From: Betaproteobacteria bacterium HGW-Betaproteobacteria-18
GTDB lineage: Bacteria > Pseudomonadota > Gammaproteobacteria > Burkholderiales > Burkholderiaceae_C
Direction of reading: 5' to 3'
Assembly: GCA_002842265.1 (NCBI GenBank)
Contig: PHCO01000004.1
Location: 1 to 43,779 of the forward strand
Length of the DNA: 43,779 nt
The notes beneath the pieces were generated by a model that was not told the DNA's origin, did not search any database, and saw nothing but the letters and a program-made list of their open reading frames with translations. A program made the position numbers and the translations under genes. Below, in pieces: positions 27,210 through 42,111 of the stretch (position 1 is its first letter; each line of letters begins with the position of its first letter).

Positions 27210-27242
27210 GCCTCGGCTGTCATCGGCTGGGGCTTTTTTTTT
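27210..27242 (+). terminator. Terminator of the CAT-anticodon tRNA
   Basis: A 10-bp stem (GCCTCGGCTG at 27210-27219 with CGGCTGGGGC at 27224-27233, three wobble pairs, loop TCAT) is followed by nine Ts. Its stem overlaps the last codons of the convergent LysR gene. Confidence 0.85.
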
Positions 27243-28182: not shown

Positions 28183-28195
28183 GCCTGTATAAAAA

Positions 28196-28226
28196 ATTGC
28201 AATGCAGTGTATTGCAATCATTGCAT
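28196..28226. promoter_or_regulatory. Candidate LysR operator: three ATTGCA-type boxes
   Basis: The divergent gap holds the perfect palindrome ATTGCAAT at 28196-28203 and again at 28211-28218, then ATTGCAT at 28220-28226. The first two are 15 bases apart, with a possible TATAAA -10 box just before (28188-28193). Confidence 0.55.
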
Positions 28227-28233
28227 TTACACC

Positions 28234-29268
28234 ATGACGTCGTCAACCTACGATCCGCCTCCATTGGGCCGAACAAGCGCCTGTATCGAGGAAACCGTAC
28301 TGAAAATCTGTGTATTGGGCGCCGGTGCCCTGGGCTGCGCCATTGGCGGTGTGTTGACCGAAGCAGGCCATGAAGTCTGGCTGGTAAACCGTGGCCAGGC
28401 GCACGTGGATGCCATGCGCGAGCGGGGTTTGACCCTGCGTGACGTCGGCGTGGACCGGGTTGTGCAGGTGCGCGCCACCACCTTCTGTCAGGAAATTGCC
28501 GAAACCAGCGGTCCGATGGACCTGATTATCGTGCTGGTCAAGTCGTTTCATACCCGCGAAGTCATGGCCTCGGCCCTGTCCATCGTCGGTGACAACACGG
28601 TCGTCATGTCATTGCAAAACGGCCTGGGTCATGAGGAAGTGCTGGCCGACGTGGTGGGGCGTGACAAAGTGCTGGCCGGCAAAACCTATACCGGCGGCGT
28701 GATGCTGGCTCCGGGTCACATCATCGTCGGTACCCAAGGCAAGGAAACGCTGATCGGCGAGTTGGATGGCAGTTTGTCCGGGCGTGTGCAGCGCATTGCC
28801 GCCGTCTTCAACGAGGCGAGTCTGATCACCACGGTCAGCCAGAACATTCTGGGCACCATGTGGGACAAGTTGCTGATTAATGTGGCCACCGGGGCATTGA
28901 GCGGCATTACCCGCCTGCCTTACGGTGAGCTGTACCAGGTGCCGGAGGTGGAAGCCTGCGCCATTGCCGCCGTGGCCGAAACCATGGCGGTGGCGCGCGC
29001 CAGCGGCATCGAACTCCTGACCACCGACCCGCGCGCACCTTGGGTCAAAGCGGCGGCCGGGCTGCCATTCGAGTTCAAGGCGTCCATGTTGCAGAGCCTG
29101 GAAAAAGGCTCGGTGACCGAGATTGACTATGTCAATGGCGCGGTGGTGCGCCAGGGTGCCAAGTGCGGTGTGCCGACCCCCGTCAACCAGGCGCTGGTGG
29201 CCTGCATGAAAGGCATCGAGCGCGGACTTTTCGGTGGTGATGGCTTGCCACGCTGCAGCCTGTCCTGA
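28234..29268 (+). CDS. 2-dehydropantoate 2-reductase-family (ApbA/PanE-like) oxidoreductase
   Basis: An NADP-dependent 2-hydroxyacid/ketoacid reductase of the ketopantoate reductase family. The nucleotide motif GAGALG is at residues 29-34, the catalytic-Lys helix reads WDKLLINVATGALSGI, and the substrate-site motif SMLQSLEKGSVTEIDYVNG contains the conserved Glu and Asp. The start ATG at 28234 is chosen because the upstream candidate is a GTG inside the operator region. Residues 336-344 and the stop codon come from an inserted repeat. True panE is possible, but the catabolic neighbours suggest another branched 2-oxo acid. It is the first gene of the plus-strand cluster. Confidence 0.85.
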   Translation: MTSSTYDPPPLGRTSACIEETVLKICVLGAGALGCAIGGVLTEAGHEVWLVNRGQAHVDAMRERGLTLRDVGVDRVVQVRATTFCQEIAETSGPMDLIIVLVKSFHTREVMASALSIVGDNTVVMSLQNGLGHEEVLADVVGRDKVLAGKTYTGGVMLAPGHIIVGTQGKETLIGELDGSLSGRVQRIAAVFNEASLITTVSQNILGTMWDKLLINVATGALSGITRLPYGELYQVPEVEACAIAAVAETMAVARASGIELLTTDPRAPWVKAAAGLPFEFKASMLQSLEKGSVTEIDYVNGAVVRQGAKCGVPTPVNQALVACMKGIERGLFGGDGLPRCSLS

Positions 29269-29317
29269 GCTTGGCCTGTCCTGAGCTTGGCGAAGGGTCG
29301 AAGGGCTCGCAATGACG
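29239..29317. repeat. MITE-like repeat A (partial; forms 3' end of the upstream gene)
   Basis: Matches the right half of the full element at 36493-36607: a GATGGCTTGCC opening, two tandem copies of CCTGTCCTGAGCTTGG, GCGAAGGGTCGAAGG and the end CTCGCAATGACG. It supplies the final nine codons and the TGA of the ketopantoate-reductase-like gene. Confidence 0.85.
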
Positions 29318-29331
29318 AAAGAAATACAACA

Positions 29332-29727
29332 ATGACAAGCAATCAATCCTATGTCGAACATGTGGCGGTGCGAGTCAAGGACATCCACTGGCACATCCGG
29401 TTTTTCCGTGACGTGCTGGGCATGACCGTGCGCGAAATCGACGGCCCTGCTGACTCGCCCAACCAGTACTGGACGATTGGCGGCATGCAGCTCATGAGCG
29501 CCCCTGACTTCGAGGCAGCGCCCAGCGTTGATTCGGGTTGGCTGGCGCATCTGGGCATCATGGTGCAAGACCTGGAACTGGCCTTGCGCGAGGCGCAACC
29601 CTGGGGCGTCAAAGAACTGCCGCAAGGGCGCAACTGCTTGCAATTGCCCGACGGCCTGGCCATCGAGTTGATCCAGTCGCACGGTGACGGTGTCACACAA
29701 GCGCTGGCGGTCAAGTCGCGTGCGTAA
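29332..29727 (+). CDS. VOC-superfamily (glyoxalase/dioxygenase fold) protein
   Basis: A 131-residue vicinal-oxygen-chelate protein with two beta-alpha-beta-beta-beta modules. Likely metal ligands are His10 (VEHVAVRVKD), His73 (LAHLGIMV) and Glu112 (LAIELIQ), so a metal site is plausible. Members isomerise, epimerise or cleave small oxygenated acids; the exact reaction cannot be read. The start at 29332 follows directly after repeat A, which may have displaced the original leader, as the ribosome site is weak. It is in line with the MaoC and CoA-transferase genes. Confidence 0.82.
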   Translation: MTSNQSYVEHVAVRVKDIHWHIRFFRDVLGMTVREIDGPADSPNQYWTIGGMQLMSAPDFEAAPSVDSGWLAHLGIMVQDLELALREAQPWGVKELPQGRNCLQLPDGLAIELIQSHGDGVTQALAVKSRA

Positions 29728-29733
29728 ACCGGC

Positions 29734-29809
29734 TGTCATTGCGAGCCAGCCGTGTCCGACCCGATACCGCACTCGGATTGCCGCGTCACTAAGTTCCTCG
29801 CAATGACGG
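29734..29809. repeat. MITE-like repeat B1
   Basis: A 76-base element with terminal inverted repeats TGTCATTGCGAG and CTCGCAATGAC. Its interior (CCGTGTCCGACCCGATACCG) resembles part of repeat E at 37.7 kb. Confidence 0.8.
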
Positions 29810-29817
29810 TGTTATTT

Positions 29818-29940
29818 CCGTCACTGCGAGCCCTTCGACCCTTCGCCAAGCTCAGGACAGGCCAAGCTCAGGACAGGCTGCAGCGCGGCAGTCTATGCAG
29901 TCCGGAAGTCATGGATCGCCATGCTTCGCTCGCGATGACG
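29818..29940. repeat. MITE-like repeat B2 (inverted copy of the A/D type)
   Basis: Ends CCGTCACTGCGAGC and GCTCGCGATGACG enclose CCCTTCGACCCTTCGCCAAG and two tandem CTCAGGACAGGCC units, the reverse complement of the core seen in repeats A and D. About 123 bases. Confidence 0.8.
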
Positions 29941-29970
29941 TTTTCATCATTCATTTTTCAGAGAAACACC

Positions 29971-30444
29971 ATGCCCAAACCCAACATCCAATTCACCACG
30001 CCCGAGAAATACTGGGACGACGCCAAAGAGGGCGACGAGTGCACCAGCCCGACTTACACCGTGACGGCGGCGCGCATCGATGCCTATGCCGAACTGACTG
30101 GCGACTTCACCCCGGTGCATGTGGACGAGGAATACGCCCGCAAGAGCCACTTTGGCCAGCGTGTGGCGCACGGTCTGATGGGCCTGTCGGTGGCTGACGG
30201 CCTGAAAACCCAAAGCGAATACCGCTTTTTGCCCGGCATGTCGCTGGGCTGGACCTGGGATTTTGTGCGGCCCATTGCCATCAACGATGTGCTGCACATC
30301 ACTTTTCGCATTGGCGCCATGCGGCCTTCCAAGTCCAAGCCGGACTGGGGCATCGTGGTGATTCCCACCGAACTGATCAACCAGAAGGGCCAGGTGGTGC
30401 AAAAAGGCGAACACCGCCTGATGGTGCCGCGCCGGCCTGCTTGA
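29971..30444 (+). CDS. MaoC-family hydratase/dehydratase
   Basis: A 157-residue single hot-dog MaoC-like protein. The (R)-hydratase motif is present as D45-FTPV-H50-VD, with FGQRVAHGLM following, so Asp45/His50 should catalyse hydration or dehydration of an enoyl-CoA-type thioester. The reading frame extends far upstream through repeat DNA, but MPKPNIQFTTPEKYW is the natural start, with GAGA upstream of the ATG. The next gene is a CoA-transferase, which supports a thioester substrate. Confidence 0.9.
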   Translation: MPKPNIQFTTPEKYWDDAKEGDECTSPTYTVTAARIDAYAELTGDFTPVHVDEEYARKSHFGQRVAHGLMGLSVADGLKTQSEYRFLPGMSLGWTWDFVRPIAINDVLHITFRIGAMRPSKSKPDWGIVVIPTELINQKGQVVQKGEHRLMVPRRPA

Positions 30445-30461
30445 TGCCATGACACTTCCAA

Positions 30462-30526
30462 CCGTCTTGCGAGGCCGGAGGCCGTGGCAATCCATGAAGT
30501 CCTGGGTTGCCACGCTCCGCAATGAC
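30462..30526. repeat. MITE-like repeat C
   Basis: A degenerate short copy between the MaoC and CoA-transferase genes: CCGTCTTGCGAGGCC at the left, GGCAATCCATG and GGTTGCCACG inside, CCGCAATGAC at the right. Confidence 0.7.
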
Positions 30527-30564
30527 AACTTGAATGCTCTCCATTAACGCCAAAGGCGAACGCC

Positions 30565-31782
30565 ATGCACCCATCTACCCAAGCCCTGCCGCTCGCCGGT
30601 TTCCGCGTCATCGACTACAGCCACTTTCTGGCGGGCCCGTATTTGTCGCGCTGTCTGGCGGCACTTGGTGCCGAAGTGATCAAGGTCGAGCGCCCCACCG
30701 AGGGCGACGCGGGCCGTCACCACGCCTATTTCATTGGTGACTACAGCGGCTACTTTTTGCAGCAGAACATGGGAAAAAAAGGCCTGTGCATCAACCTGCG
30801 TGACCCGCGCGGTCTGGCGCTGATGCACAAGCTCACCGACACCGCCGATGTCTTTGTCGAGAACTACCGCCCCGGTGCGTTGAAGAAACTGGGGCTGGGC
30901 TACGACACGTTGTCCGAGCGCAACCCCGGCCTGGTTTATTGCTCGATTTCTGCCTACGGCCATACCGGGCCGGACGCGCACCGCGCCGGATTTGGCCTGA
31001 TCGCCGAGGCCAAGAGCGGCATCATGGCCATGGTGGGCAACCCCGGTGAAGCACCGCCGCTGCTGCGTGTCTCGCTGGGCGACATGTACACCGGCATCCA
31101 TGGCGTGGCCGCCATTTGTGCCGCGCTGCTGGGACGCGTCAAGTCGGGCAAGGGCCAGCACATTGATCTGTCGCTGTACGACTGTCTGGTATCGATGCAC
31201 GACTACGCGGTGCAGTGCTACACCCTCTCAGGTGGCAAGGACATTCCGGTGCAAACCGGCCACGACATGCCGCAAAGCACGCTCTACGGCGTGTTCACGG
31301 CCACCGACGGCTATCTGGTGATTGCCGCGCAAGTCGATGACGCCTGGAAGCGCTTTGCCAAGTTGGCCGATGGCGACGCGTTTGCGGCCGACACCCGCTT
31401 TCACACCTCTGCCGGCCGTAACGAAAACAGGCTGGAAATCCTGGCCGTGGCCAAAGCCTGGGTGGCTTCGCAGACCGTGGCGCAGTGCCTGGCCGCACTC
31501 GATGCCATCGACGTGCCCAGCGCCAAGGTGCAAAACATTGCCGAGGTGTTGGCCGACCCGCAGATCATTGCCCGCAACATGGTCATCGAACAGGACCACC
31601 CGGTGCTGGGCAAGATCAAATTGCCCAACCTGCCGTTCCGTTTCTCGGGCTGTGATACCTCGCCCACCAGCATCGCCCCTGACATGGGTCAGCACAACCG
31701 CGAGATTGCCGCGAGCCTGGGCTATGGCGCCGACGACATCGACGCGATGGTGCGTGATGGCGTGCTGTACAGCACCGTGTAA
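30565..31782 (+). CDS. CaiB/BaiF (family III) CoA-transferase
   Basis: A 405-residue family III CoA-transferase, which moves CoA between carboxylic acids. The N-terminal Rossmann-like part contains DYSHFLAGPYLSRCLAALGAEVIKVERP, and the catalytic Asp is Asp173 in RVSLGDMYTG. The later GKGQHIDLSLYD and C-terminal SLGYGADDIDAMVRDGVL are typical. It would activate the pathway acid using an acyl-CoA donor such as succinyl-CoA; the acid is unknown. Upstream is the MaoC hydratase, and downstream, after a REP-like element, a shikimate dehydrogenase paralogue. Confidence 0.94.
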   Translation: MHPSTQALPLAGFRVIDYSHFLAGPYLSRCLAALGAEVIKVERPTEGDAGRHHAYFIGDYSGYFLQQNMGKKGLCINLRDPRGLALMHKLTDTADVFVENYRPGALKKLGLGYDTLSERNPGLVYCSISAYGHTGPDAHRAGFGLIAEAKSGIMAMVGNPGEAPPLLRVSLGDMYTGIHGVAAICAALLGRVKSGKGQHIDLSLYDCLVSMHDYAVQCYTLSGGKDIPVQTGHDMPQSTLYGVFTATDGYLVIAAQVDDAWKRFAKLADGDAFAADTRFHTSAGRNENRLEILAVAKAWVASQTVAQCLAALDAIDVPSAKVQNIAEVLADPQIIARNMVIEQDHPVLGKIKLPNLPFRFSGCDTSPTSIAPDMGQHNREIAASLGYGADDIDAMVRDGVLYSTV

Positions 31783-31796
31783 CAACAAGGTAGATG

Positions 31797-31849
31797 TTTT
31801 GTAGGGTCGGCTTCAGCCGACCATGGCCGACTGAAGTCGGCCCCACAAA
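31797..31849. repeat. Double-hairpin BIME-like repeat
   Basis: Two mini-palindromes, GTCGGC-TTCA-GCCGAC and GCCGAC-TGAA-GTCGGC, face each other around CATG. They are bounded by TTTGTAGGG and CCCCACAAA, so the whole 53 bases also form one long imperfect hairpin. Unrelated in sequence to the other repeats here. Confidence 0.8.
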
Positions 31850-31866
31850 GGTAGAAAGGATCAAGC

Positions 31867-32688
31867 ATGTCAGACCATTACGCCGTCATCGGCAACCCGA
31901 TCGCCCAGAGCAAATCGCCCATGATCCATGGCATGTTCGCCCAAGCGAGCGGGCAGGACATGACCTACACCAGGATTGAAGCCCCCCTGGGCGGCTTCAA
32001 GGACGCCGTGGATGCGTTCAGAGCCGCAGGCGGCAAGGGCCTGAACATCACCGCGCCTTTCAAACTCGATGCCTGCGACTATGCCAGCGAACGCTCCAGG
32101 CGGGTGCAACTGGCGGGTGCCGCCAACGCCATGAAGTTCGTGGGCGAGCGCGTGCTGGCAGAAAACTTTGACGGTGTCGGCCTGGTGCGCGATGTGACGC
32201 ATAACCTGCAGTGCGCCCTCAAAGGCAAACGTGTGCTGCTGTTGGGCGCGGGCGGCGCGGCGCGAGGTGCCCTGCTGCCGTTTCTGGCGCAAGAGCCGCT
32301 TGAACTGGTGATTGCCAACCGTACCTTGCAAAAGGCGTTTGACCTGGCGAGCATCGGCGCGCAGTGGGGCAGGGTGCGATCCAGCAGTTACGCTGAACTG
32401 GCCGGGCACAGTTTTGACCTGGTCTTCAATGCCACCTCTGCCAGTTTGCGTGGTGAACTGCCCCCGGTGCCGGCCTCGGTGTTTACACACTGCAGCCTGG
32501 CCTATGAATTTGCCTACGGCAAGGGCTTGACGCCGTTTTTGCGGCTGGCGCGCAACTCGGGTGTCAATCCATTGGCCGATGGTGTTGGCATGCTGGCCGA
32601 GCAGGCCGCCGAAGCCTTTTTCTGGTGGCGCGGCGTGCGCCCCGAGACCCGTGCCGTGATCGACAAACTTACCGTGCCGCTGGTGTAG
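31867..32688 (+). CDS. aroE: Shikimate dehydrogenase paralogue (AroE family)
   Basis: A 273-residue AroE-type NADP oxidoreductase. The substrate serines Ser15 and Ser17 (GNPIAQSKSP), catalytic Lys66 (NITAPFK) and Asp102 (ENFDGVG) are all present, and the cofactor loop GAGGAARG is at 127-134. It departs from housekeeping AroE at positions usually constant: APFK for VPFK, GAANAM for GAVNT and ENFDG for DNTDG. With its place in a catabolic run (CoA-transferase before, TetR and TRAP after), I infer a shikimate- or quinate-like substrate rather than aromatic amino acid synthesis, though the biosynthetic role is not excluded. A good AAGGA ribosome site precedes the ATG. Confidence 0.85.
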   Translation: MSDHYAVIGNPIAQSKSPMIHGMFAQASGQDMTYTRIEAPLGGFKDAVDAFRAAGGKGLNITAPFKLDACDYASERSRRVQLAGAANAMKFVGERVLAENFDGVGLVRDVTHNLQCALKGKRVLLLGAGGAARGALLPFLAQEPLELVIANRTLQKAFDLASIGAQWGRVRSSSYAELAGHSFDLVFNATSASLRGELPPVPASVFTHCSLAYEFAYGKGLTPFLRLARNSGVNPLADGVGMLAEQAAEAFFWWRGVRPETRAVIDKLTVPLV

Positions 32689-32757
32689 CGCTCACTGAGC
32701 GCTTCAAACCACAGAACCGGACCACGCCCATGGCAAGCACTGTCCTATACTTTGCGG

Positions 32758-33459
32758 ATGAACCAAGCCGTACATTTACCGCTCAAGAAAGCGCGCACCA
32801 GCAAAGTCGTCAAAGCCAAGACGCCGCTGCGCGTCACCACACGCACCAACGACCCGGACCGCACCATGGCGGGGATTCTGGAAGTCGCCACTGTCGAATT
32901 TGGCGAGAAGGGTCTGGACGGCGCGCGCATCGACGAGATTGCGGCTGCGACCAAAACCAGCAAGCGCATGATTTACTACTACTTCACCAGCAAGGAAGGC
33001 TTGTACCGTGCCGTGCTGGAGGACATTTACCGGCGCATGCGGGCCATTGAATCGGGGTTGCACCTGAAAGACATGCCGCCAGTAGAAGCCTTGCAGCGCC
33101 TGGTGGAGTTCACTTTCGACCACCACCACAGCAACGAGAACTTCATTCGCCTGGTGATGTCGGAAAACATGCAGCGCGGCGCTTACCTGGCGCAGAGCCA
33201 AAGCATCCAGGACCTCAACGTGCCGGCCATTGCGGCCATCCGGGAGCTGTACGACCGGGGCGTGGCGGCCGGGGTGTTTCGTGCCGGGCTCGATCCGGTG
33301 GACATTCATGCGTCCATTTCTGCGTTGACCTTTTTCAATGTGTCCAACCGTCATACCTTTGGGCTGATTTTCAAGCAGGACCCCGCCTCAATCGACGCCG
33401 TTGCCGCCCGGCGCAACAGCATCATCGACATGGTGCTGCGCTACGTGCGCGCGCCTTAA
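32758..33459 (+). CDS. TetR/AcrR-family transcriptional regulator
   Basis: A 233-residue TetR-type repressor. The basic N-terminal extension (KKARTSKVVKAKT) precedes the helix-turn-helix ARIDEIAAATKTSKRMIYYYFTSKEGLYRAVLE. The C-terminal ligand domain (SENMQRGAYLAQSQ onward) resembles TetR_C domains of proteins that sense acyl-CoA or aromatic ligands. The start at 32758 is an ATG; a TTG lies two codons earlier. A perfect palindrome overlapping the promoter of the next (TRAP) genes is its likely operator. Downstream of aroE by 69 bases. Confidence 0.93.
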   Translation: MNQAVHLPLKKARTSKVVKAKTPLRVTTRTNDPDRTMAGILEVATVEFGEKGLDGARIDEIAAATKTSKRMIYYYFTSKEGLYRAVLEDIYRRMRAIESGLHLKDMPPVEALQRLVEFTFDHHHSNENFIRLVMSENMQRGAYLAQSQSIQDLNVPAIAAIRELYDRGVAAGVFRAGLDPVDIHASISALTFFNVSNRHTFGLIFKQDPASIDAVAARRNSIIDMVLRYVRAP

Positions 33460-33514
33460 CCACTTCCGGTTTTCTCCGCTGCCCTGGCATTTTTCCGAAC
33501 CTGTTCAAAATGAA

Positions 33515-33543
33515 TTTTCACGCTCAAGGGTTTTCCCTATAAA
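33515..33543 (+). promoter_or_regulatory. Predicted sigma-70 promoter of the TRAP operon
   Basis: TTTTCA (33515-33520) and TATAAA (33538-33543) are separated by 17 bases. The expected start point near 33550 lies inside the palindrome at 33548-33561. The dctQ ATG follows at 33587. Confidence 0.6.
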
Positions 33544-33547
33544 TAAA

Positions 33548-33561
33548 ACTAACAAGTTAGT
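33548..33561. promoter_or_regulatory. Candidate TetR operator
   Basis: ACTAAC-AA-GTTAGT is a perfect 6-bp inverted repeat with a 2-base centre, placed right after the -10 box and 89 bases from the end of tetR. Position and symmetry fit repression of the TRAP genes. Confidence 0.65.
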
Positions 33562-33586
33562 ACAAAATTTGGAAAAAGGATATTCC

Positions 33587-34072
33587 ATGCTTCACTTGCT
33601 CATTGACCGGTACTGCAAATTCATATCCGTCCTCATGGTGGCCGCCCTGGCCGTCATGGTGGTGATGGTGTTTGGCAACGTGGTGTTGCGCTACGCCTTC
33701 AACTCCGGCATTGCAGTGTCTGAAGAACTCTCGCGCTGGCTGTTTGTCTGGGTCATCTTTTTGGGCGGCACCGTGGCGGTGCGCGAGCATGGCCACATCA
33801 GCACCGATATGCTGGTCGAAAAACTGCCCGCACCGGCGCGCAAAGTCTGCCAGGTGCTTGGTCATGTGTTGATGTTGTGGGTCACCTGGTTGATGTTCTG
33901 GGGCAGTCTGGCGCAAACCCGCATCAATCTGGATGTCGAGGCCCCGGTGACCGGCCTGTCGATGGCCTGGCTGTATGGCGCCGGACTGCTGTTTGCCATC
34001 TTCACCGGTTTCTTTCTGTTGCTCGAGCTGTGGGAAATCCTGAGCAACAAAGCCCAACGGAGCGCCGCATGA
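33587..34072 (+). CDS. TRAP transporter small permease, DctQ type
   Basis: A 161-residue membrane protein with four predicted helices (near residues 15-35, 48-66, 88-108 and 127-150). The conserved SEELSRWLFVWVIFLGGTVAVREHGHI motif of DctQ is present. It partners the large permease in sodium-driven uptake of organic acids. An AAGGA ribosome site precedes the ATG; longer reading-frame starts overlap tetR and are not credible. It overlaps the next gene by ATGA. Confidence 0.93.
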   Translation: MLHLLIDRYCKFISVLMVAALAVMVVMVFGNVVLRYAFNSGIAVSEELSRWLFVWVIFLGGTVAVREHGHISTDMLVEKLPAPARKVCQVLGHVLMLWVTWLMFWGSLAQTRINLDVEAPVTGLSMAWLYGAGLLFAIFTGFFLLLELWEILSNKAQRSAA

Positions 34073-35349
34073 CCATCGTGATTTTTCTCGGCGCGCTGAT
34101 CGCGGCCATTGCCATTGGCATTCCGATTGCCTACGCGCTGCTGCTCTCGGGCATCGCCCTGATGGTGCATCTGAATAATTTTGATGCGCAGATCCTGGCG
34201 CAAAACATGCTGGAAGGGGCCAACAGCTTCCCCTTGCTGGCGGTGCCGTTCTTCATGCTGGCGGGTGAAATCATGAATGTGGGCGGCCTGTCCAAACGCA
34301 TTGTGAACCTGGCTTTGTCCTCGGTCGGTCACGTGCGTGGCGGCTTGGGTTTTGTGACCATTCTGGCAGCCGTGCTGATGGCCTCGCTGTCTGGTTCAGC
34401 GGTGGCCGACACCGCCGCGCTTGCGGCCTTGTTATTGCCGATGATGGTGGCCGCCGGGCACGACAAAAACCGCTCCGGCGGGCTGATTGCCTCGGCCGGC
34501 ATCATTGCGCCCATCATTCCGCCGTCCATCCCGTTCGTCATTTTTGGTGTTTCTACCAACCTGTCCATCGGCAAGCTGTTCATGGCCGGCATCGTGCCGG
34601 GTGTGTTGATGGGCGTGTCGATTGCCGCGGTCTGGTACTGGATCGCTCGCGGTGAAGGGGCCAAAACGCCGCCCAAAGCCAGCCGTGCCGAGCAGTTGCA
34701 AAAACTCAAGGAATCGGCCTGGGCCCTGTTTCTGCCCGTGATCGTGCTGGTGGGTCTGAAGATGGGTGTCTTCACGCCCACCGAGGCGGCGGTGGTGGCA
34801 GCGGTGTACGCGCTGTTTGTGGCCACGGTGATCTACCGCGAACTCAAGATACATCAGTTGTTCGAGGTGTTTGCCAGCGCCGCAAAAACCACTTCGGTGA
34901 TCATGTTTCTGGTGGCTGCTGCGTCAGTGAGCGCCTGGCTGATCACCATTGCCAACCTGCCGGCGCAGCTGATTGAGTTGCTGCAGCCCTTCATGGACCG
35001 GCCCACGCTGCTGCTGTGCCTGATCATGGTGCTGATCTTGCTGGTCGGCATGGCGATGGACCTGACACCCACCATCCTGATTCTGGCCCCGGTGCTGTTG
35101 CCGGTGGCGGTGGCCGCGGGCATCGACCCGATTTACTTTGGCGTGTTGTTCGTCATGAACGGCGCCATCGGCCTGACCACGCCGCCGGTGGGCACGGTGC
35201 TCAATGTGGTCGCCGGGGTCGGCAAGATGAAGATCGACCAGGTGGCGCGTGGCGTTTGGCCCTTCATGCTGGCGCAGATTGCCGTGTTGTTCCTGCTGGT
35301 GATGTTTCCGCAACTGGTGCTGGCTCCGCTGCGCTGGTTTTACAGCTAA
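34069..35349 (+). CDS. TRAP transporter large permease, DctM type
   Basis: A 426-residue, roughly 12-helix transport subunit that carries the ion-coupled translocation path. Typical sequences include FPLLAVPFFMLAGEIMN, the SGSAVADTAALAALLLP region, IIPPSIPFVIFGV and GAIGLTTPPVGTVLNVV. Its start is on the ATGA end of dctQ. The N-terminus IVIFLGALIAAIAIGIPIAYAL marks the real start; a longer frame that runs back into dctQ is an artefact. Confidence 0.95.
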   Translation: MTIVIFLGALIAAIAIGIPIAYALLLSGIALMVHLNNFDAQILAQNMLEGANSFPLLAVPFFMLAGEIMNVGGLSKRIVNLALSSVGHVRGGLGFVTILAAVLMASLSGSAVADTAALAALLLPMMVAAGHDKNRSGGLIASAGIIAPIIPPSIPFVIFGVSTNLSIGKLFMAGIVPGVLMGVSIAAVWYWIARGEGAKTPPKASRAEQLQKLKESAWALFLPVIVLVGLKMGVFTPTEAAVVAAVYALFVATVIYRELKIHQLFEVFASAAKTTSVIMFLVAAASVSAWLITIANLPAQLIELLQPFMDRPTLLLCLIMVLILLVGMAMDLTPTILILAPVLLPVAVAAGIDPIYFGVLFVMNGAIGLTTPPVGTVLNVVAGVGKMKIDQVARGVWPFMLAQIAVLFLLVMFPQLVLAPLRWFYS

Positions 35350-35437
35350 ACCACTTTTTTCCGGTTTTGCAGTGCCCTGGGTACGCCATTGCAAAGCCTT
35401 TTAACTTGCGTCCCGCCATAAATCCGGAGATCCATCA

Positions 35438-36433
35438 ATGAAACGTCTATTCATCAAAACCGTGCTGGCCACCGTCGCCATCGCTGCCGTTGGCATCGCC
35501 AGTGCGCAGGAAAAAACCATCAAGTTTGCCACCCAAAACCCCAAGGGTCACCCCATTGTGATGGGTGCTGACAAGTTTGCAGAATTGGTGGCAGCCAAGT
35601 CGGGCGGCAAGATCAAAGTCAACGTGTTCCCGGGTGGCGTGCTCGGCAGCGACCAGGCCAACGTGTCGGCGCTGCAAGGCGGCACGCTGGAAATGGTGTC
35701 CATGAACTCGGGCATTCTGGCCGGCCAAGTCAAGGACTTTGCGGTGTTCGACTTCCCCTTCATGTTCGCCAATGAAAAAGAAGCCGATGCCATCGTCGAT
35801 GGTGCCTTTGGTCACAAAATGCACGCCATGCTGGACGCCAAAGGCATTGTCGGTCTGGCGTATTACGAGCTGGGTTTCCGCAACCTGACCAACGCCAAAC
35901 GCGCCATCAACAAGGTCTCTGACATTGACGGCCTGAAACTGCGCGTGATCCCCAACCCGATCAACGTCGATTGGGTCAAGGCTCTGGGCGCCAACCCGAC
36001 ACCGCTGCCATGGCCCGAAGTCTATGCCGCGCTGGAACAAAAAGCGGTGGACGGCCAGGAAAACCCGGTCACCGTGATCAACGCCAACAAGCTCTATGAA
36101 GTGCAAAAATTTCTGGCGCTCACCAACCACCAGTACAACCCCCAGTCGGTCATGATCAGCAAGAAATTCTGGGACACACTGTCGGCCGCCGAGAAGAAAA
36201 TCGTTGGTGATGCAGCCATCGAGTCCGCCAAGTACCAGCGCGAGCAGGCCCGTGGCCAGGTTGCCGGCGCCATGGACAACCTGAAGAAAAACGGCATGAC
36301 CGTGACCACCTTGCCAGCTTCTGAAATGGCTATTTTGCAAGACAAGATGAAACCCGTGATTGCCAAACACGGCGAGCCCATCGCCGCTACCGTGGCTGAA
36401 CTGCAAGCTGAGCTGGCCAAACTGCGCAAGTAA
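35438..36433 (+). CDS. TRAP transporter substrate-binding protein, DctP type
   Basis: A 331-residue periplasmic binding protein with a signal peptide cleaved near ASA-QE (residue 23/24). The DctP fold is shown by FATQNPKGHPIVMGADKFAE and the LKLRVIPNPINVDWVKALGANPTPLPWPEVYAALEQKAVDGQENP segment. The Arg in LRV and Asn in QENP are the usual carboxylate and ligand contacts, so the ligand is probably an organic acid. A CCGGAG ribosome site precedes the ATG. A strong stem-loop directly follows the gene. The ligand is the key unknown of the whole cluster. Confidence 0.94.
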   Translation: MKRLFIKTVLATVAIAAVGIASAQEKTIKFATQNPKGHPIVMGADKFAELVAAKSGGKIKVNVFPGGVLGSDQANVSALQGGTLEMVSMNSGILAGQVKDFAVFDFPFMFANEKEADAIVDGAFGHKMHAMLDAKGIVGLAYYELGFRNLTNAKRAINKVSDIDGLKLRVIPNPINVDWVKALGANPTPLPWPEVYAALEQKAVDGQENPVTVINANKLYEVQKFLALTNHQYNPQSVMISKKFWDTLSAAEKKIVGDAAIESAKYQREQARGQVAGAMDNLKKNGMTVTTLPASEMAILQDKMKPVIAKHGEPIAATVAELQAELAKLRK

Positions 36434-36450
36434 AGCAAAGCAGGGCAAAT

Positions 36451-36494
36451 GGTCTTGTTTGACTGGTGGTGCGCCGAACCAGTCAAACAGGACC
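36451..36494 (+). promoter_or_regulatory. Long stem-loop after dctP (mRNA-stabilising candidate)
   Basis: A stem of 17 pairs, including one wobble (36451-36467 with 36478-36494), and a 10-base loop GGTGCGCCGA. There is no T tract, so it is not a standard intrinsic terminator; it may protect the abundant dctP message. The right arm abuts repeat D. Confidence 0.75.
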
Positions 36495-36607
36495 GTCATT
36501 GCGAGCGCAGCGCGGCAATCCAGAGGGCATGGATTGCTTCACTGCAGCCTGTCCTGAGCTTAGCCTGTCCTGAGCTTGGCGAAGGGTCGAAAGGTTCGCA
36601 ATGACGG
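36493..36607. repeat. MITE-like repeat D (most complete copy)
   Basis: 115 bases bounded by perfect 12-bp inverted ends CCGTCATTGCGA and TCGCAATGACGG. The interior holds a hairpin (GGCAATCCA...TGGATTGC) and tandem CCTGTCCTGAGCTTAG/TGG units, then GCGAAGGGTCGAAAGG. No coding capacity. Confidence 0.85.
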
Positions 36608-36657
36608 GGTCGGCTCACGCCGCACCATAACGCAAGATTGCTTAAAAAGTCCACACC

Positions 36658-37704
36658 ATGAACAAAACCCGCATCGCCATTGCTGGCGCTGGCTACATCG
36701 GCCTGGCGCACCTGGAAGTGGCGCAGAAAAGCACCACCTGCACGCTGTCCGCCATCGTGGATCCGTCGCCCGGCGCTGTGGCGATTGCCGCCAGGGCAGG
36801 TGTGCCGCGGTACACCTCCATTGACGAATTACTGGCCCAGGACCGCCCCGATGGCCTGATCCTGGCCACCCCCAACCAATTGCACGTGCCGCAGGCGCTG
36901 CAGTGCATCGCAGCGGGCATGCCCATCCTGCTCGAAAAACCCATCGCCACCACCGTCGCCGAGGCCGAAAAGCTGGTCAGTCAGGTGGACAAGACCGGTG
37001 CCAAAGTGCTCATCGGTCATCACCGCGCGCACAGCCCGATCATGGCCAAGGCCAGGGAAGTGGTCGATTCCGGCAAGCTGGGCCAACTGGTGGCGGTGAT
37101 GGGCAGCGCCACTTTTTTGAAGCCCGACCACTACTTCAACGATAACCCCTGGCGCAAGGACATTGGTGCCGGCCCGATCCTGACCAACATGATCCACGAG
37201 GTGCACAACCTGCGCATGCTGTGCGGCGACATCGTGGCCGTGCAGGCCTTTTCCAGCAACGCCACCCGTGGCTTTGTGATCGAAGACACGGTGGCCATCA
37301 CCCTGCGTTTTGCCAGCGGGGCTTTGGGCACCTTCATGCTGAGCGACACCGCCGCCTGCCCGCGCAGCTGGGAGCAAACCAGTCAGGAAAACAAGGCCTA
37401 CCCCACTTATGCCGACGAAGATTGCTACGTCATCACCGGCACCAACGGTGCCTTGTCGGTGCCCACCATGCGCCTGAAAACTTACCCGCGCCCGGAAGAC
37501 CGCTCGTGGTGGAAGGAATTTGAAGTGGGCGTGGTCGGCATGGTGCGCGACGACCCGCTCAAGCAGCAGATGGAACATTTTGGCGCGGTCGTGCGCGGCG
37601 AAGCCGAGCCGCTGGTCAGCGCCCGCGATGGCCTGCAAAACCTGCGCGTGACCGAAGCCATAGTCCAGGCTGCCCAGAGCGGGCAGGTGGTCAATTTGTC
37701 ATGA
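36658..37704 (+). CDS. Gfo/Idh/MocA-family oxidoreductase
   Basis: A 348-residue NAD(P)-dependent dehydrogenase of the glucose-fructose/inositol dehydrogenase family. The cofactor loop GAGYIG is at residues 10-15, and EKPIA (93-97) carries the catalytic-site Lys94. The C-terminal half contains GAGPILTNMIHEVHNLRML, where the family usually has an Asp before the Ile-His pair and this protein has Asn. Substrates in the family are cyclic polyols, sugars and related hydroxy acids, which suits the neighbouring shikimate-type enzymes. It starts 50 bases after repeat D. Confidence 0.92.
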   Translation: MNKTRIAIAGAGYIGLAHLEVAQKSTTCTLSAIVDPSPGAVAIAARAGVPRYTSIDELLAQDRPDGLILATPNQLHVPQALQCIAAGMPILLEKPIATTVAEAEKLVSQVDKTGAKVLIGHHRAHSPIMAKAREVVDSGKLGQLVAVMGSATFLKPDHYFNDNPWRKDIGAGPILTNMIHEVHNLRMLCGDIVAVQAFSSNATRGFVIEDTVAITLRFASGALGTFMLSDTAACPRSWEQTSQENKAYPTYADEDCYVITGTNGALSVPTMRLKTYPRPEDRSWWKEFEVGVVGMVRDDPLKQQMEHFGAVVRGEAEPLVSARDGLQNLRVTEAIVQAAQSGQVVNLS

Positions 37705-37711
37705 ACAAGCG

Positions 37712-37843
37712 CTGTCATTGTGAGCCCGCCGTATCCGGCTCGATCCCGCACACGGACCTTGAACCGTCATCGCGAGCGAAGCGTGGCGATCCATGCATTT
37801 TGCAGTCATGGATTGCCACGCCGTTGCACGGCTCGCAATGACG
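37712..37843. repeat. MITE-like repeat E (two abutting copies)
   Basis: Left copy 37712-37763 opens TGTCATTGTGAGC and has a B1-like interior. Right copy 37764-37843 runs from CCGTCATCGCGAGC to GCTCGCAATGACG with a central CGATCCATG...CATGGATTG hairpin. Confidence 0.8.
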
Positions 37844-37876
37844 CATCAGTTTCGTTTTCATCCTAAAGGAATCCCC

Positions 37877-38323
37877 ATGAAAGTTCTCATGCTGCACGGC
37901 GTCAACCACAACATGTTCGGCAAGCGCGACCCCAGGCAGTACGGCACCATCACGCTCGATCAGATCAACGCCTCCCTGACTGCACTGGGCAAGGAACTGG
38001 GCGTCGAGATCGAGGCCTACCAGACCAACTGCGAAGGCGACATGTGCGAGCGCATTCACCAGGCCTACAAAGATGGCGTGGACGCGGTGCTGATCAATGC
38101 CGGTGCCTGGACGCATTACAGCTATGGCATCCGTGATGCGCTGGCCATCCTGACCTGCCCGATTGTGGAGCTGCACATGTCCAACATTCACGCCCGCGAG
38201 GAATTCCGCCACCACTCGGTGTTCGGCGAAATTGTCATGGGCCAGATTTGCGGCTTTGGCGAGGACAGTTATTTGCTGGCTTTGCGCGCCGGCGTGTCGG
38301 CAGCCAAGGGGAAAAAAGCATGA
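37877..38323 (+). CDS. aroQ: Type II 3-dehydroquinate dehydratase paralogue
   Basis: A 148-residue AroQ-fold dehydratase. Catalytic Arg17 and Tyr22 (KRDPRQYG), Asn74 and His80 (INAGAWTHYS), His100 (VELHMSNIHAREEFR) and Arg111 are all kept, so it should be active. Differences from the biosynthetic type are the opening GVNHNMFGKRDP for GPNLNLLGxREP and NAGAWTHYS for NPGAYTHTS. It would interconvert 3-dehydroquinate or a close analogue and the dehydrated product. A good ribosome site (AAAGGA) precedes the ATG, and it overlaps the next gene by ATGA. A catabolic quinate pathway enzyme is one option. Confidence 0.9.
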   Translation: MKVLMLHGVNHNMFGKRDPRQYGTITLDQINASLTALGKELGVEIEAYQTNCEGDMCERIHQAYKDGVDAVLINAGAWTHYSYGIRDALAILTCPIVELHMSNIHAREEFRHHSVFGEIVMGQICGFGEDSYLLALRAGVSAAKGKKA

Positions 38324-39150
38324 CCATCGACGGCAACACCGAAATCATTGCGCACATTGGCTTTCCCACCTATGCCTTTCGGGCACCGCTGATTTACAAC
38401 CCCTGGTTTGCCAAGGTGGGCATCAACGCCATTGTGGTGCCGATGTCGTGCCAGGTTGAGCCCTATCCAAGGTTTTTGCGCTCGATCTTTCATCTGGGCA
38501 ATATTCGCGGCGCGTTGATCACCATGCCGCACAAGGTGTCCACGGTGGGCATGGTCGATGAGGTGCTGCCCACGGCTGCCATTGCGGGTTCGTGCAACGC
38601 CGTGCGTCGCCTGGCTGATGGCCGCTTGCAGGGCGAGATGTTCGATGGCGAGGGCTTTGTGCGCGGTCTCAAACGCAAGGGATTCGACCCCAAGGGTCGG
38701 CGCGCCCTGGTGGTGGGGGCGGGCGGTGTGGGGTGTGCCATTGCCGCCTCGCTGGCCGCCGCAGGGGTGCTGGACATGGACTTGTTCGATGTCAATGACG
38801 CCTCTGCCCAAGGCCTGGCCAACCGGCTGATGCAGCACTACCCCAGCATGACGATTCGCACCGGCTCCAATGATCCTGCCGGCTACGAACTGCTGGTCAA
38901 CGCCACCCCCATGGGCATGAAGGACGGCGACCCGTTGCCCGTTGACATGGCCAGGGTCGATGCCTCCACCTTTGTCGGTGAAGTGGTCATGAAGACCGAC
39001 ATGACCGCGTTTTTGAAGGCTGCGCAGGCGCGCGGCTGCCGCATCCAGATGGGCTCAGACATGCTGTACGAGATGATTCCCGCCTACCTGGAGTACTTTG
39101 GCTACCCGGTGCCGACACCTGATGAGTTGCGCGCCGCGGCTCAAGGCTGA
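38320..39150 (+). CDS. Divergent shikimate dehydrogenase-like protein
   Basis: A 276-residue protein with AroE fold. Catalytic-type Lys72 (LITMPHK) and Asp109 (MFDGEG) and the cofactor loop GAGGVG (133-138) are present. The two serines that hold the shikimate carboxylate in AroE are missing: the equivalent stretch reads GFPTYAFRAP. So it should reduce or oxidise a substrate different from shikimate, perhaps a larger or differently charged ring. It is coupled to the dehydroquinase gene by ATGA, so both very likely act in one pathway. The N-terminal candidate starts further upstream lie inside aroQ. Confidence 0.88.
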   Translation: MTIDGNTEIIAHIGFPTYAFRAPLIYNPWFAKVGINAIVVPMSCQVEPYPRFLRSIFHLGNIRGALITMPHKVSTVGMVDEVLPTAAIAGSCNAVRRLADGRLQGEMFDGEGFVRGLKRKGFDPKGRRALVVGAGGVGCAIAASLAAAGVLDMDLFDVNDASAQGLANRLMQHYPSMTIRTGSNDPAGYELLVNATPMGMKDGDPLPVDMARVDASTFVGEVVMKTDMTAFLKAAQARGCRIQMGSDMLYEMIPAYLEYFGYPVPTPDELRAAAQG

Positions 39151-39164
39151 TTGAAAGCAAAACC

Positions 39165-40097
39165 ATGACCCACCCAACAACGCCTGACGTCTTGATCTCT
39201 GAAGTGGGACCGCGCGACGGCCTGCAATCGGTCAAGGCCACCATGCCCACGGCAGACAAGTTCAAATGGATCGACGCGCTGGTGGCCGCCGGCCTGCGCG
39301 AGATCGAGGTGTGCTCCTTCGTGCCCGCCAAACTGCTGCCGCAAATGGCCGATGCTGCCCAGGTGGTGCAACACGCCTTGCAATACCAGGGCGTGACGGT
39401 GATGGCGCTGGTGCCCAATTTGCGCGGCGCCGAAGCGGCTTTGAGGTCCGGCGTGCACAAGCTCACCATTCCCTGTTCGGCCAGCGAAGCCCATTCCCTG
39501 GCCAACGTGCGCAAGAGCCGCAAAGACATGGTTGAAGAAGTGCGCGCCATCGTGCGCCTGCGCGACGAGATCACGCCAGGCGTCAAGATCGAAGCGGGCC
39601 TGTCCACCGCCTTTGGCTGCACCATCCAGGGCGAAGTCTCCGATGACGACGTGGTCTGGATGGCCGAGCAAGTGGTGGCGGCCGGGGTCGATGAAGCGGG
39701 CCTGTCCGACACCACCGGCATGGCCAACCCGGCGCAGGTACGCCGCCTCTTTACTAAGGTCCGCGCAGCCATTGGCGACAAGACCGGCGCTGCCCACATG
39801 CACAACACGCGCGGCCTGGGGCTGGCCAACTGCCTGGCCGCCTATGACGTGGGCGTGCGCACCTTTGACGCGTCTTTGGGTGGATTGGGCGGCTGCCCGT
39901 ATGCCCCCGGCGCCTCGGGCAACGTGGTCACCGAAGACCTGGTCTTCATGTTCGAGGCCATGGGCATCAGGACGGGCATCGACATTGAAAAACTCATCGC
40001 CGCACGCGCCCCCCTGATGGCCGGACTGCCAGGTGAGCCGGTCTATGGCATGACCCCGCTGGCAGGATTGCCCAAGAACTGGAAAATGGCGGCTTGA
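39165..40097 (+). CDS. HMG-CoA lyase-family acyl-CoA lyase
   Basis: A 310-residue TIM-barrel lyase of the hydroxymethylglutaryl-CoA lyase family. Arg17/Asp18 (GPRDGLQ), the metal ligands His211/His213 (AHMHNTRG) and catalytic Cys244 in GGLGGCPYAPGASGNV are all present, so retro-Claisen/aldol cleavage of a 3-hydroxyacyl-CoA is expected. HMG-CoA from leucine is one substrate, but no leucine-pathway neighbours are seen; a product of the CoA-transferase/MaoC steps is more likely. It follows the SDH-like gene by 14 bases. Confidence 0.92.
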   Translation: MTHPTTPDVLISEVGPRDGLQSVKATMPTADKFKWIDALVAAGLREIEVCSFVPAKLLPQMADAAQVVQHALQYQGVTVMALVPNLRGAEAALRSGVHKLTIPCSASEAHSLANVRKSRKDMVEEVRAIVRLRDEITPGVKIEAGLSTAFGCTIQGEVSDDDVVWMAEQVVAAGVDEAGLSDTTGMANPAQVRRLFTKVRAAIGDKTGAAHMHNTRGLGLANCLAAYDVGVRTFDASLGGLGGCPYAPGASGNVVTEDLVFMFEAMGIRTGIDIEKLIAARAPLMAGLPGEPVYGMTPLAGLPKNWKMAA

Positions 40098-40101
40098 TTT
40101 G

Positions 40102-40129
40102 CTGTGGGAGCGGCGCCCCCGCCGCGATG
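40102..40129. repeat. Short REP-like hairpin
   Basis: GTGGGAGCGGCG-CCCC-CGCCGCGATGG: a 6-bp GC stem (40110-40115 with 40120-40125) with a Pseudomonas-REP-like GTGGGAGCGGC opening. Lies between the lyase and carrier genes. Confidence 0.6.
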
Positions 40130-40148
40130 GCTTGAAGTGACATAGACC

Positions 40149-41021
40149 ATGTTTCTGCGCATCGTCAGCATCATTTTCCCGATCTTCATCATCGTGATGA
40201 TCGGCTTTGCCTACGGGCGCCAACGCCGACCTGACATGGCGGCGGCCAACACGCTCAACATCACGGTGTTTTTGCCGGCGCTGTTTTTCTCGGCGCTGGC
40301 GGGCAAGACCTTCAATCTGGCCGACAACGCGCAAATCGCGTTGGGCTGCGCCGTGGTGGTGCTGGGCTCGGGCCTGCTCACCTGGCCGCTGGCGCGGCTG
40401 CTCGGCATGGCGCCCAAAACCCTGGTGCCACCCTCCATGTTCAACAACGTCGGCAACATGGGCCTGCCCCTGATGCTGCTGACCTTTGGCGAGCAGGCGC
40501 TGGGTGCTGCCGTGGTGCTGATGCTGGTGGTCACCGTGTTGCAGTTCAGTGTGGGCATCTGGCTGCTCAGCGGCCGCTTTCAGGCGTCGATGCTCTGGCG
40601 CGAGCCTTTGCTGGCGGCCGCAGCGGCCGGGATATTTGTCAGCCTGAGCGGCTTGACCGTGTGGCCACCGCTGATGGTGGCGGTCAAGCTGCTCGGCGAT
40701 ATTTCGATTGGCCTGATGATTTTTTCGCTGGGCGTGCGCTTGTCCACGGCGCAGTTGGGCGCCTGGCGCATTGGCGCGGTGGGGGCCGTCGTGACGCCGG
40801 TCACGGGCATGCTGGTGGCCTGGGGCGTTGGTCTGCTGGCCAACCTGAGCCCGACCGAGCAAGCCATGCTGTTTGTGTTTGGCGCGCTGCCGCCAGCCGT
40901 GTCGTGTTTCATCTTTGCCGAACGCTACAGCCAAGAGCCTGCCAAAGTGGCCAGCATTGTCATCATCGGCAATACTGCAGCCTTGTTTTTTATTCCGCTG
41001 GCGCTCGCGCTGCGCCTGTAA
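40149..41021 (+). CDS. AEC-family transporter (auxin efflux carrier fold)
   Basis: A 290-residue membrane carrier with about ten helices. The N-terminal IVSIIFPIFIIVMIGFAYGRQRR, the crossover segment PPSMFNNVGNMGLPLMLLTFGEQAL and the C-terminal FGALPPAVSCFIFAERYSQEP are typical of bacterial AEC proteins, several of which move malate, malonate or other carboxylates. Here it may export a by-product or give a second uptake route next to TRAP. It starts 51 bases after the lyase gene. Confidence 0.9.
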   Translation: MFLRIVSIIFPIFIIVMIGFAYGRQRRPDMAAANTLNITVFLPALFFSALAGKTFNLADNAQIALGCAVVVLGSGLLTWPLARLLGMAPKTLVPPSMFNNVGNMGLPLMLLTFGEQALGAAVVLMLVVTVLQFSVGIWLLSGRFQASMLWREPLLAAAAAGIFVSLSGLTVWPPLMVAVKLLGDISIGLMIFSLGVRLSTAQLGAWRIGAVGAVVTPVTGMLVAWGVGLLANLSPTEQAMLFVFGALPPAVSCFIFAERYSQEPAKVASIVIIGNTAALFFIPLALALRL

Positions 41022-41036
41022 CCGGAGCCACTGCCC

Positions 41037-41306
41037 ATGGATTTGCCAATTCACCAACTGTCGATGACGGTGCTGATGACCCCCGACACCGCCAATTTTT
41101 CCGGCAACGTGCACGGCGGCACCATTCTGAAATTTCTGGATCAGGTGGCCTTTGCCTGCGCCAGCCGCTATGCCGGGTGCTACGTGGTCACGCTCAGTGT
41201 CGATCAGGTCATGTTCAGGCAGTCGATCCATGCCGCCGCTGAACTGCGCAAGCAGATGCGCCGCGAAATGGAGCAGTGTTTTGCGGCCACACGGACCAGC
41301 CCATGA
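41037..41306 (+). pseudogene. Acyl-CoA thioesterase (hot-dog) with internal deletion
   Basis: The reading frame is open (89 residues), but the protein is too short. Residues 1-66 match the N-terminal half of YciA-type acyl-CoA thioesterases (MTVLMTPDTANFSGNVHGGTILKFLDQVAFACASRYA...VMFRQSIH), including the Asn-His-Gly-Gly site region. After QSIH the sequence jumps to RKQMRREMEQCFA, which resembles the very C-terminal helix of those proteins. From family knowledge roughly 70 residues are missing in between, in frame, so the hot-dog fold cannot be complete. The next gene overlaps by ATGA. Possibly still expressed; activity is doubtful. Confidence 0.75.
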
Positions 41307-41950: not shown

Positions 41951-42111
41951 TCTTCGGCCGCGATAACGATGAGTTTGAATGGTGGGGGTTATGTCGCCAT
42001 TGCAGCGCAATGTAGAGAGGTACTTTGCGCGGCAAGGCGTGTACACAACATGCCACATCAACAGCCAGAAAGCGAACCCCTACAGGTGTTGTTCGTTTTC
42101 CGGCAAGGCTT

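Follow-up and report, generated by a model that had tools for sequence, protein, structure and literature searches.

A conserved CoA-enzyme module associated with a probable quinate/shikimate-type gene cluster in a Burkholderiales bacterium

A stretch of 43,779 nucleotides from Betaproteobacteria bacterium HGW-Betaproteobacteria-18 (order Burkholderiales; GenBank assembly GCA_002842265.1, contig PHCO01000004.1), hereafter the window, carries a gene cluster at positions 28234–41021. Taken as a joint reading, this cluster probably serves the catabolism of a quinate/shikimate-type (hydroaromatic) acid, with a coenzyme A (CoA)-transferase of the CaiB/BaiF family, a MaoC-type hydratase, a VOC protein and a PanE-like oxidoreductase most likely forming a CoA-thioester side arm. 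The quinate/shikimate cluster is the known part, and the new part is the conserved, as yet unexplained CoA module attached to such a cluster.

Results

Gene order conservation of the CoA module

In the window, the module consists of a PanE/ApbA-like NAD(P) oxidoreductase (PanE, 28297–29268; Pfam ApbA and ApbA_C; the start is inferred, and the open reading frame (ORF) can open at 28207), a single-domain VOC protein (29332–29727; Glyoxalase), a MaoC-type hydratase/dehydratase (MaoC, 29971–30444; MaoC_dehydratas) and a CaiB/BaiF family III CoA-transferase (CaiB, 30565–31782; CoA_transf_3, E 2e-113). It is followed by AroE1 of the shikimate dehydrogenase family (31867–32688; Shikimate_dh_N) and a TetR-type regulator (32752–33459; TetR_N and TetR_C_29). 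Next come the subunits of a tripartite ATP-independent periplasmic (TRAP) importer, namely the small membrane subunit DctQ (33587–34072; DctQ), the large membrane subunit DctM (34069–35349; DctM), both with inferred starts, and the solute-binding protein DctP (35438–36433; DctP). A Gfo/Idh/MocA dehydrogenase (Gfo, 36658–37704; GFO_IDH_MocA), the type II 3-dehydroquinate dehydratase AroQ (37877–38323; DHquinase_II) and a second shikimate dehydrogenase family member, AroE2 (38320–39150; Shikimate_dh_N), complete this part. All of these genes are on the plus strand, and a LysR-type regulator gene (27220–28221, minus strand; HTH_1 and LysR_substrate) diverges from them. ORF reading with Pfam and NCBIfam scans over 28234–41021 bore out the gene set, order, strand and end at 41021 of the original prediction, which had been made from the letters of the stretch; every gene that it named is open and matches the stated Pfam family. 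The LysR gene had been overlooked, as had decayed genes past the last gene, an AEC carrier.

CaiB orthologs, defined by an E value of at most 1e-130, were found in 3 of 300 order genomes, 4 of 398 phylum genomes and 40 of 399 family genomes; the own genome is counted in each, and the samples overlap. Because the best four to six candidates were scored per genome, these counts are lower bounds and absences are soft. CaiB was also present in 19 plasmid records of Burkholderia, Paraburkholderia, Caballeronia, Massilia, Variovorax and Bradyrhizobium. The gene order comparison covered 61 loci (designated by L numbers). The family and phylum scans supplied 40 of them, two lying outside the family; the order scan supplied two, 15 came from the 19 plasmid records, and four were reached via AroE2. 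PanE, VOC, MaoC, CaiB and AroE1 stood in this order in 50/61 loci and the first four in 55/61; these are raw counts without a formal null, and many of the loci are mutually related. L011 is an exception in the order count, since its contig begins inside CaiB. An AroE or AroQ homolog lay within 10 kb in 59 of the 61 loci, and AroQ in 45. A LysR match was found in 30 of the 40 family and phylum loci, and the divergent LysR gene belongs to the unit. The clustering that the original prediction had proposed to look for in other genomes was thus conserved.

Several loci placed the module and the shikimate-type genes in one run. The order of the window from LysR through AroE2 recurs in L109 and L122 (LysR divergent, then PanE-VOC-MaoC-CaiB-AroE1-TetR-DctQMP-Gfo-AroQ-DSD-AroE2), with a fused gene for 3-dehydroshikimate dehydratase (DSD) and HPPD inserted between AroQ and AroE2; L123 has the same order without DSD. 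L113, L115 and L117 carry AroQ-PanE-VOC-AroE2-MaoC-CaiB in one run without AroE1, and therefore the two gene sets interleave. L131 combines HPPD-like, DSD, acyl-CoA dehydrogenase, PanE, VOC, MaoC, CaiB, TetR, TRAP, Gfo, AroQ and AroE2 genes. The Massilia locus L061 has the five genes with AroQ, another shikimate dehydrogenase, DSD and AEC. In Rhizobium, DSD stands with relatives of AroQ (38% identity), Gfo (46%) and AroE2 (59%) and with pcaBGHCD, and AroE2 relatives adjoin DSD or pca genes in Rhizobium, Klebsiella and Comamonadaceae plasmids.

Reduced arrangements were also observed. L108 reads acyl-CoA dehydrogenase-HPPD-like-DSD-CaiB-AroE1-AroQ-AroE2 with no match to PanE, VOC or MaoC; L112 and L119 have CaiB without these three, and the Janthinobacterium locus L040 has CaiB alone. 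In Rhodoferax sp. U2-2l (L009, 4174–6744), PanE and AroE1 precede TetR-TRAP-AroE2-lyase, with no VOC, MaoC or CaiB match in the fetched stretch. A gene for an acyl-CoA thioesterase (4HBT_3) lies between AroE1 and TetR on the opposite strand in L011 (2309–3112). Catechol-type intradiol dioxygenase genes lie near AroQ or AroE1 in L136 (9458–11206), where a FAA_hydrolase-family protein accompanies it, L018 (8475–9434) and L116 (12766–13647). On a Janthinobacterium lividum plasmid (L072, 19998–25568), a 63% CaiB homolog is found in a polyketide/condensation-type cluster next to a shikimate dehydrogenase and a sugar phosphate isomerase; that cluster could use a shikimate-type starter acid.

Shikimate-type enzymes and the importer

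AroE1 passed the NCBIfam cut-offs of the shikimate dehydrogenase models NF001310 and TIGR00507, and AroE2 and Gfo matched at family level, AroE2 lying under all NCBIfam cut-offs. The best PDB match of AroE1 was 3pwz (E 9e-104). The two share an ENFDG motif; F101, D102 and G103 of AroE1 are invariant in 23 rows (two duplicates), and K66, N87 and D102 are conserved. We take AroE1 to resemble P. putida Ael1, with Phe in the N-x-D-G motif as the presumed marker, and AroE2, whose best PDB match was 4k28 (E 7e-46), presumably resembles RifI2; both classes are assigned by closest match, without a tree. A review describes the data on AroE-like and related shikimate dehydrogenase classes as limited (PMC7144000).

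AroQ scored over the NCBIfam aroQ cut-off and is the sole type II dehydroquinase found in this genome, as a single genome match. Its alignment with solved type II enzymes covers almost the full length (best PDB match 6cv6, E 9e-75), and dehydroquinase activity is predicted. Among the module loci, 18 AroQ rows were 75–91% identical to AroQ of the window, rows under 70% being left out; the homologs in L039, L055, L129 and L138 were at only 39–44% identity.

The importer differed among loci. Some have the window-type TRAP, of which DctP gave 4p47 as its best PDB match, L010 has a different TRAP, and L105, L039 and L138 have an amino-acid-type ABC importer. The AEC-family carrier (40149–41021, plus strand; Mem_trans) is also found downstream in L008 and L010.

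Conserved residues of the module proteins

Residues were counted as conserved at 95% or more in alignments of 20–23 rows, the VOC, MaoC, CaiB and AroE1 sets each including two duplicates. PanE conserved K191, N195 and E275 (20 sequences), MaoC D45 and H50 (22 rows), and CaiB D173 (23 rows), which we take to be the catalytic aspartate of the family III CoA-transferases to which CaiB belongs. VOC conserved H10, Q53, H73 and E112 (22 rows), which were invariant in a separate 15-row set and presumably correspond to the ligand pattern of methylmalonyl-CoA epimerase; the score against the equivalog of that enzyme, TIGR03081, was 20.4 against a cut-off of 115 bits. Because these putative key residues of VOC, MaoC, CaiB, PanE and AroE1, whose roles we assume from their families, are conserved, the proteins are suggested to be working enzymes.

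No curated NCBIfam equivalog was passed by CaiB, MaoC or VOC. A PDB search with VOC gave no match at E 0.01, and its AlphaFold model (4 rows) had a mean pLDDT of 60 and was set aside for fold comparison. The best PDB match of CaiB was 9br7, a succinate-hydroxymethylglutarate CoA-transferase.

Association with an acyl-CoA dehydrogenase

The association of the module with an acyl-CoA dehydrogenase is a new link found in this analysis. In the family scans, taken as the same 399 genomes and both under the candidate limit given above, the dehydrogenase was detected in 29 and CaiB in 40; 19 genomes from 18 genera had both, compared with about 3 expected (Fisher p 1e-14, or 4e-13 at genus level, neither test allowing for relatedness). 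The dehydrogenase gene (67% identity or more) was present in 6 of the 40 CaiB loci, directly before CaiB in L119, and on contig C362 of the own genome it adjoins DSD-like and pcaB-like genes. Downstream of a 68% relative of the dehydrogenase in Azoarcus KH32C come another CoA-transferase and ETF genes, and an IclR gene and an AP_endonuc_2 isomerase adjoin this group.

The dehydrogenase gave sub-threshold matches to cyclohexane-1-carbonyl-CoA dehydrogenase and crotonobetainyl-CoA dehydrogenase, and the acryloyl-CoA reductase and FadE models scored higher, also under the cut-off. Crotonase genes with at least 67% identity to the one in L105 were found in L104, L105, L107 and L111. Near the L129 cluster, a flavoprotein scored over the general FAD-dependent oxidoreductase cut-off, with a sub-threshold match to 4-oxocyclohexenecarboxylate dehydrogenase.

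Related genes elsewhere in the host genome

In the assembly, which comprises 521 contigs and 3.58 Mb, the window is contig C462. The closest matches of its AroE2 (87–93%) were from Rhodoferax and other Burkholderiales or Comamonadaceae assemblies. The genome contains four shikimate dehydrogenase homologs, two of them within the cluster, and one type I dehydroquinase, on C176. On C362, a DSD-like TIM barrel truncated where the contig ends is in a row with a pcaB-like gene under NCBIfam cut-offs, the acyl-CoA dehydrogenase and a Mem_trans carrier. DSD-half matches of 29–57% identity were obtained in 13/13 genomes searched, and the weak ones could be other isomerases. These matches occurred with or without the module, and a role of the CoA module as a substitute for DSD was rejected as a general rule.

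A second quinate-like cluster was observed on C176 (L047, 544–14081). It contains a shikimate dehydrogenase homolog, IclR, a TctA-type transporter, an HPPD-like protein, type I AroD and a TIM-barrel isomerase-like protein; beside AroD are an acetolactate-synthase-like thiamine pyrophosphate (TPP) enzyme and a SauS-like acylating aldehyde dehydrogenase, both under the cut-offs of their models. A 71% homolog of the TPP enzyme occurs together with the module in L019. In L008, HPPD-like, DSD-like and pcaB-like genes are consecutive and lie a few kb from TRAP-AroE2-lyase genes, and because of this arrangement C176, C362 and the window may form one region in the host.

Other genes and repeats of the window

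Between AroE2 and the AEC carrier lies a gene for an accessory enzyme similar to 3-hydroxy-3-methylglutaryl-CoA (HMG-CoA) lyase (39165–40097, plus strand; HMGL-like). It scored 297 bits against the cut-off of 246 for the NCBIfam subfamily PRK05692, and lyase activity is predicted. Past the carrier, on the plus strand, a hotdog-fold thioesterase fragment (41037–41237) of 67 amino acids, 92.5% identical to a 163-amino-acid protein of L010 (4HBT), is not a working gene, and a frame-broken Amidohydro_2 gene (41306–41966) is split into two overlapping ORFs, both with partial Pfam Amidohydro_2 matches and one under the curated cut-off. By ORF reading, panC and panB come after these decayed genes at the right end of the window. 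PanE as a pantothenate gene of this panB/panC pair was rejected, as it stands with VOC, MaoC and CaiB in the 55 loci counted above.

Amidohydrolase relatives were observed beside AroE2 in L015 and L029, next to PanE on the opposite strand in L099–L102, and near CaiB in L119; that they act as quinate-lactone hydrolases would be a guess. A dispersed repeat has copies, 87–94% alike and in both orientations, in gaps of the operon at 29240–29317, 29809–29906, 36519–36607 and 37762–37795, one of them overlapping the 3' end of the PanE gene.

Discussion

The quinate/shikimate part of the reading, which draws on protein families and conserved context, is well supported, because the neighbourhood is conserved, AroE or AroQ lies near CaiB, and L109 and L122 hold the same order with DSD. 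The imported acid would accordingly be of the quinate/shikimate kind, as proposed in the original prediction, which had assigned its import to TRAP and its processing to Gfo, AroQ and the two AroE-like proteins; the L109 and L122 loci and the Rhizobium relatives argue for that assignment. DctQMP, and perhaps also the AEC carrier, would import the acid, and Gfo and AroE2 would oxidise ring hydroxyls. AroQ would dehydrate 3-dehydroquinate to 3-dehydroshikimate, and AroE1 would interconvert shikimate and 3-dehydroshikimate. The DSD-like enzyme encoded on the other contig beside the pcaB-like gene could then form protocatechuate for the beta-ketoadipate pathway. The route to 3-dehydroshikimate is proposed with fair confidence because of the L109/L122, Rhizobium and Massilia contexts, the AroQ matches and the DSD-half matches; the product is most probably 3-dehydroshikimate and then protocatechuate.

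That CaiB and MaoC carry the ring acids on as CoA esters had also been predicted, and the part of this claim that now stands is association: the two share one unit with PanE and VOC. Because the CoA-transferase/acyl-CoA dehydrogenase pairing lies next to shikimate dehydrogenase and DSD, desaturation of hydroaromatic acids as CoA esters is suggested. CaiB may load CoA onto a shikimate relative without the ring double bond, saturated or otherwise modified. The acyl-CoA dehydrogenase or MaoC may form this double bond on the CoA ester, by desaturation or dehydration, and VOC and PanE may adjust stereochemistry or oxidation state near C1/C2. CaiB might then hand the CoA to the next substrate and free a shikimate-like acid, which AroE1 (Ael1) would oxidise to 3-dehydroshikimate. 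In this tentative proposal, conjectural in all its steps, reduced or modified hydroaromatic acids such as dihydroshikimate or 3,4-dihydroxycyclohexanecarboxylate would enter the protocatechuate pathway by way of CoA recycling. From quinate and shikimate, lactobacilli make these two compounds, which would be natural substrates of such a route; our literature search found no confirmation of this production.

Several observations weigh against a hydroaromatic pathway with a CoA side arm. The best solved relative of CaiB is named for open-chain dicarboxylates, and CaiB, MaoC and the acyl-CoA dehydrogenase are far under the NCBIfam cut-offs for named reactions. DSD was found within 11 kb in only 7/61 loci, and the own DSD-like half on C362 shares only some 30% identity with the queries and could be another isomerase. 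Around CaiB in L107 and L111, neither AroE nor AroQ was matched within 10 kb. The Burkholderia loci L038, L060, L064 and L065 retain the five genes without any match to AroQ or DSD in the stretch fetched, which in L038 and L064 has tcuAB and an MFS transporter. Among the dehydrogenase genomes, 10/29 had no detected CaiB, and 21/40 CaiB genomes had no detected dehydrogenase, with few candidates scored per genome. On Burkholderia multivorans and Paraburkholderia phymatum plasmids, tcuA and tcuB stand beside the five-gene module at 1976–4586 in L038, 1477–4087 in L064 and 899–3506 in L067; citrate/tricarballylate chemistry is hinted at by these neighbours in three loci, two of the same species.

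The dicarboxylate relatives of CaiB lead to two other explanations. The cluster could be an ordinary quinate/shikimate-to-protocatechuate cluster in which the CoA module handles a different plant acid under shared regulation, for instance 3-hydroxy-3-methylglutarate or some other branched dicarboxylate, with CaiB making the CoA ester and the lyase cleaving it. This fits the match of CaiB to succinate-hydroxymethylglutarate CoA-transferase, the score of the lyase over PRK05692 and the pairing of lyase relatives with another CaiB and an amidohydrolase in L041 and L043. However, that CaiB is of another kind, as an L015 gene is 75% identical to it and only 30% to CaiB of the window. The lyase gene itself occurs in 1/61 CaiB loci, and PanE, VOC, MaoC and AroE1 would be left unexplained, so this explanation is unlikely. 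It is more doubtful still, and in our view improbable, that CaiB and its partners act in the lower protocatechuate pathway, where CaiB could, for instance, replace PcaIJ and transfer CoA to 3-oxoadipate. The named proteins closest to CaiB, succinyl-CoA:dicarboxylate CoA-transferases, would agree with this, but Rhizobium pcaB/G/H/C/D queries gave only two weak pcaH matches (31 and 36%) in the 40 family and phylum loci, and we know of no place for PanE, VOC or MaoC in that pathway.

The original prediction had let the ring acids continue as CoA esters until the HMG-CoA-lyase-type enzyme splits the product. All genes for this route lie on one strand in the window, and they recur in L010 with a different TRAP and another Gfo-family gene. 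The lyase is absent from 60/61 CaiB loci and adjoins AroE2 only in the close relatives L007, L008, L009, L010 and L036; therefore it is not a core step of the conserved unit. A core role of the lyase was rejected, and the route that ends in it is very improbable.

A quinate/shikimate cluster with a CoA-thioester side arm can be compared with several known systems. The literature search found no described pathway with this exact set, in line with the original prediction, although the search terms were narrow and this absence is weak evidence. The qui genes of Acinetobacter (PMC4213383) and the qsu genes of Corynebacterium join an importer, quinate or shikimate dehydrogenases and 3-dehydroquinate dehydratase, with a link to DSD and protocatechuate; the cluster of the window has an importer and AroQ, candidate dehydrogenases and a putative link to DSD. 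In contrast to them, the window has type II AroQ, Gfo and AroE-like enzymes instead of periplasmic QuiA/QuiB, its putative DSD is encoded elsewhere, and its CoA module is outside the described sets. The Rhizobium plasmid locus L044 (DSD-ABC-AroQ-Gfo-AroE2-pca) likewise groups members of the Gfo, type II AroQ and AroE2 families next to one another; it differs in its ABC importer and in the low identities of AroQ and Gfo given above, and no CoA module was seen in the fetched stretch.

The carnitine cai operon works by CoA recycling, the logic proposed here, and likewise pairs a CaiB-family CoA-transferase with an acyl-CoA dehydrogenase, joined by a crotonase in some of our loci; here the hydratase is MaoC and the context is shikimate-like. 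The cai equivalogs were missed by CaiB (132/413 bits), the dehydrogenase (180/540) and the L105 crotonase (204/500). Cyclohexanecarboxylate degradation (ali/bad) and aromatisation (chc) share alicyclic acid chemistry and the sub-threshold matches of the dehydrogenase and the L129 flavoprotein. The scores are far under the cut-offs (231/650 and 150/575 bits for the cyclohexanecarboxyl-CoA dehydrogenase equivalogs); CoA ligase, BadH and BadI equivalents were not specifically searched for. With the P. putida Ael1 and RifI2 classes the link is that of closest solved relatives (3pwz for AroE1, 4k28 for AroE2), and here their putative members share a catabolic cluster that also holds AroQ, an importer and CoA enzymes.

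Plants contain the acids quinate and shikimate in abundance, and to our knowledge CoA does not enter the known aerobic route for them before protocatechuate. The linkage of CoA chemistry to this route in a conserved unit points to an unrecognised class of alicyclic substrates. The cluster also places two shikimate dehydrogenase classes of poorly understood role in a concrete, testable context. If true, the CoA-recycling entry would give a function to Ael1 and to the PanE-VOC-MaoC-CaiB module.

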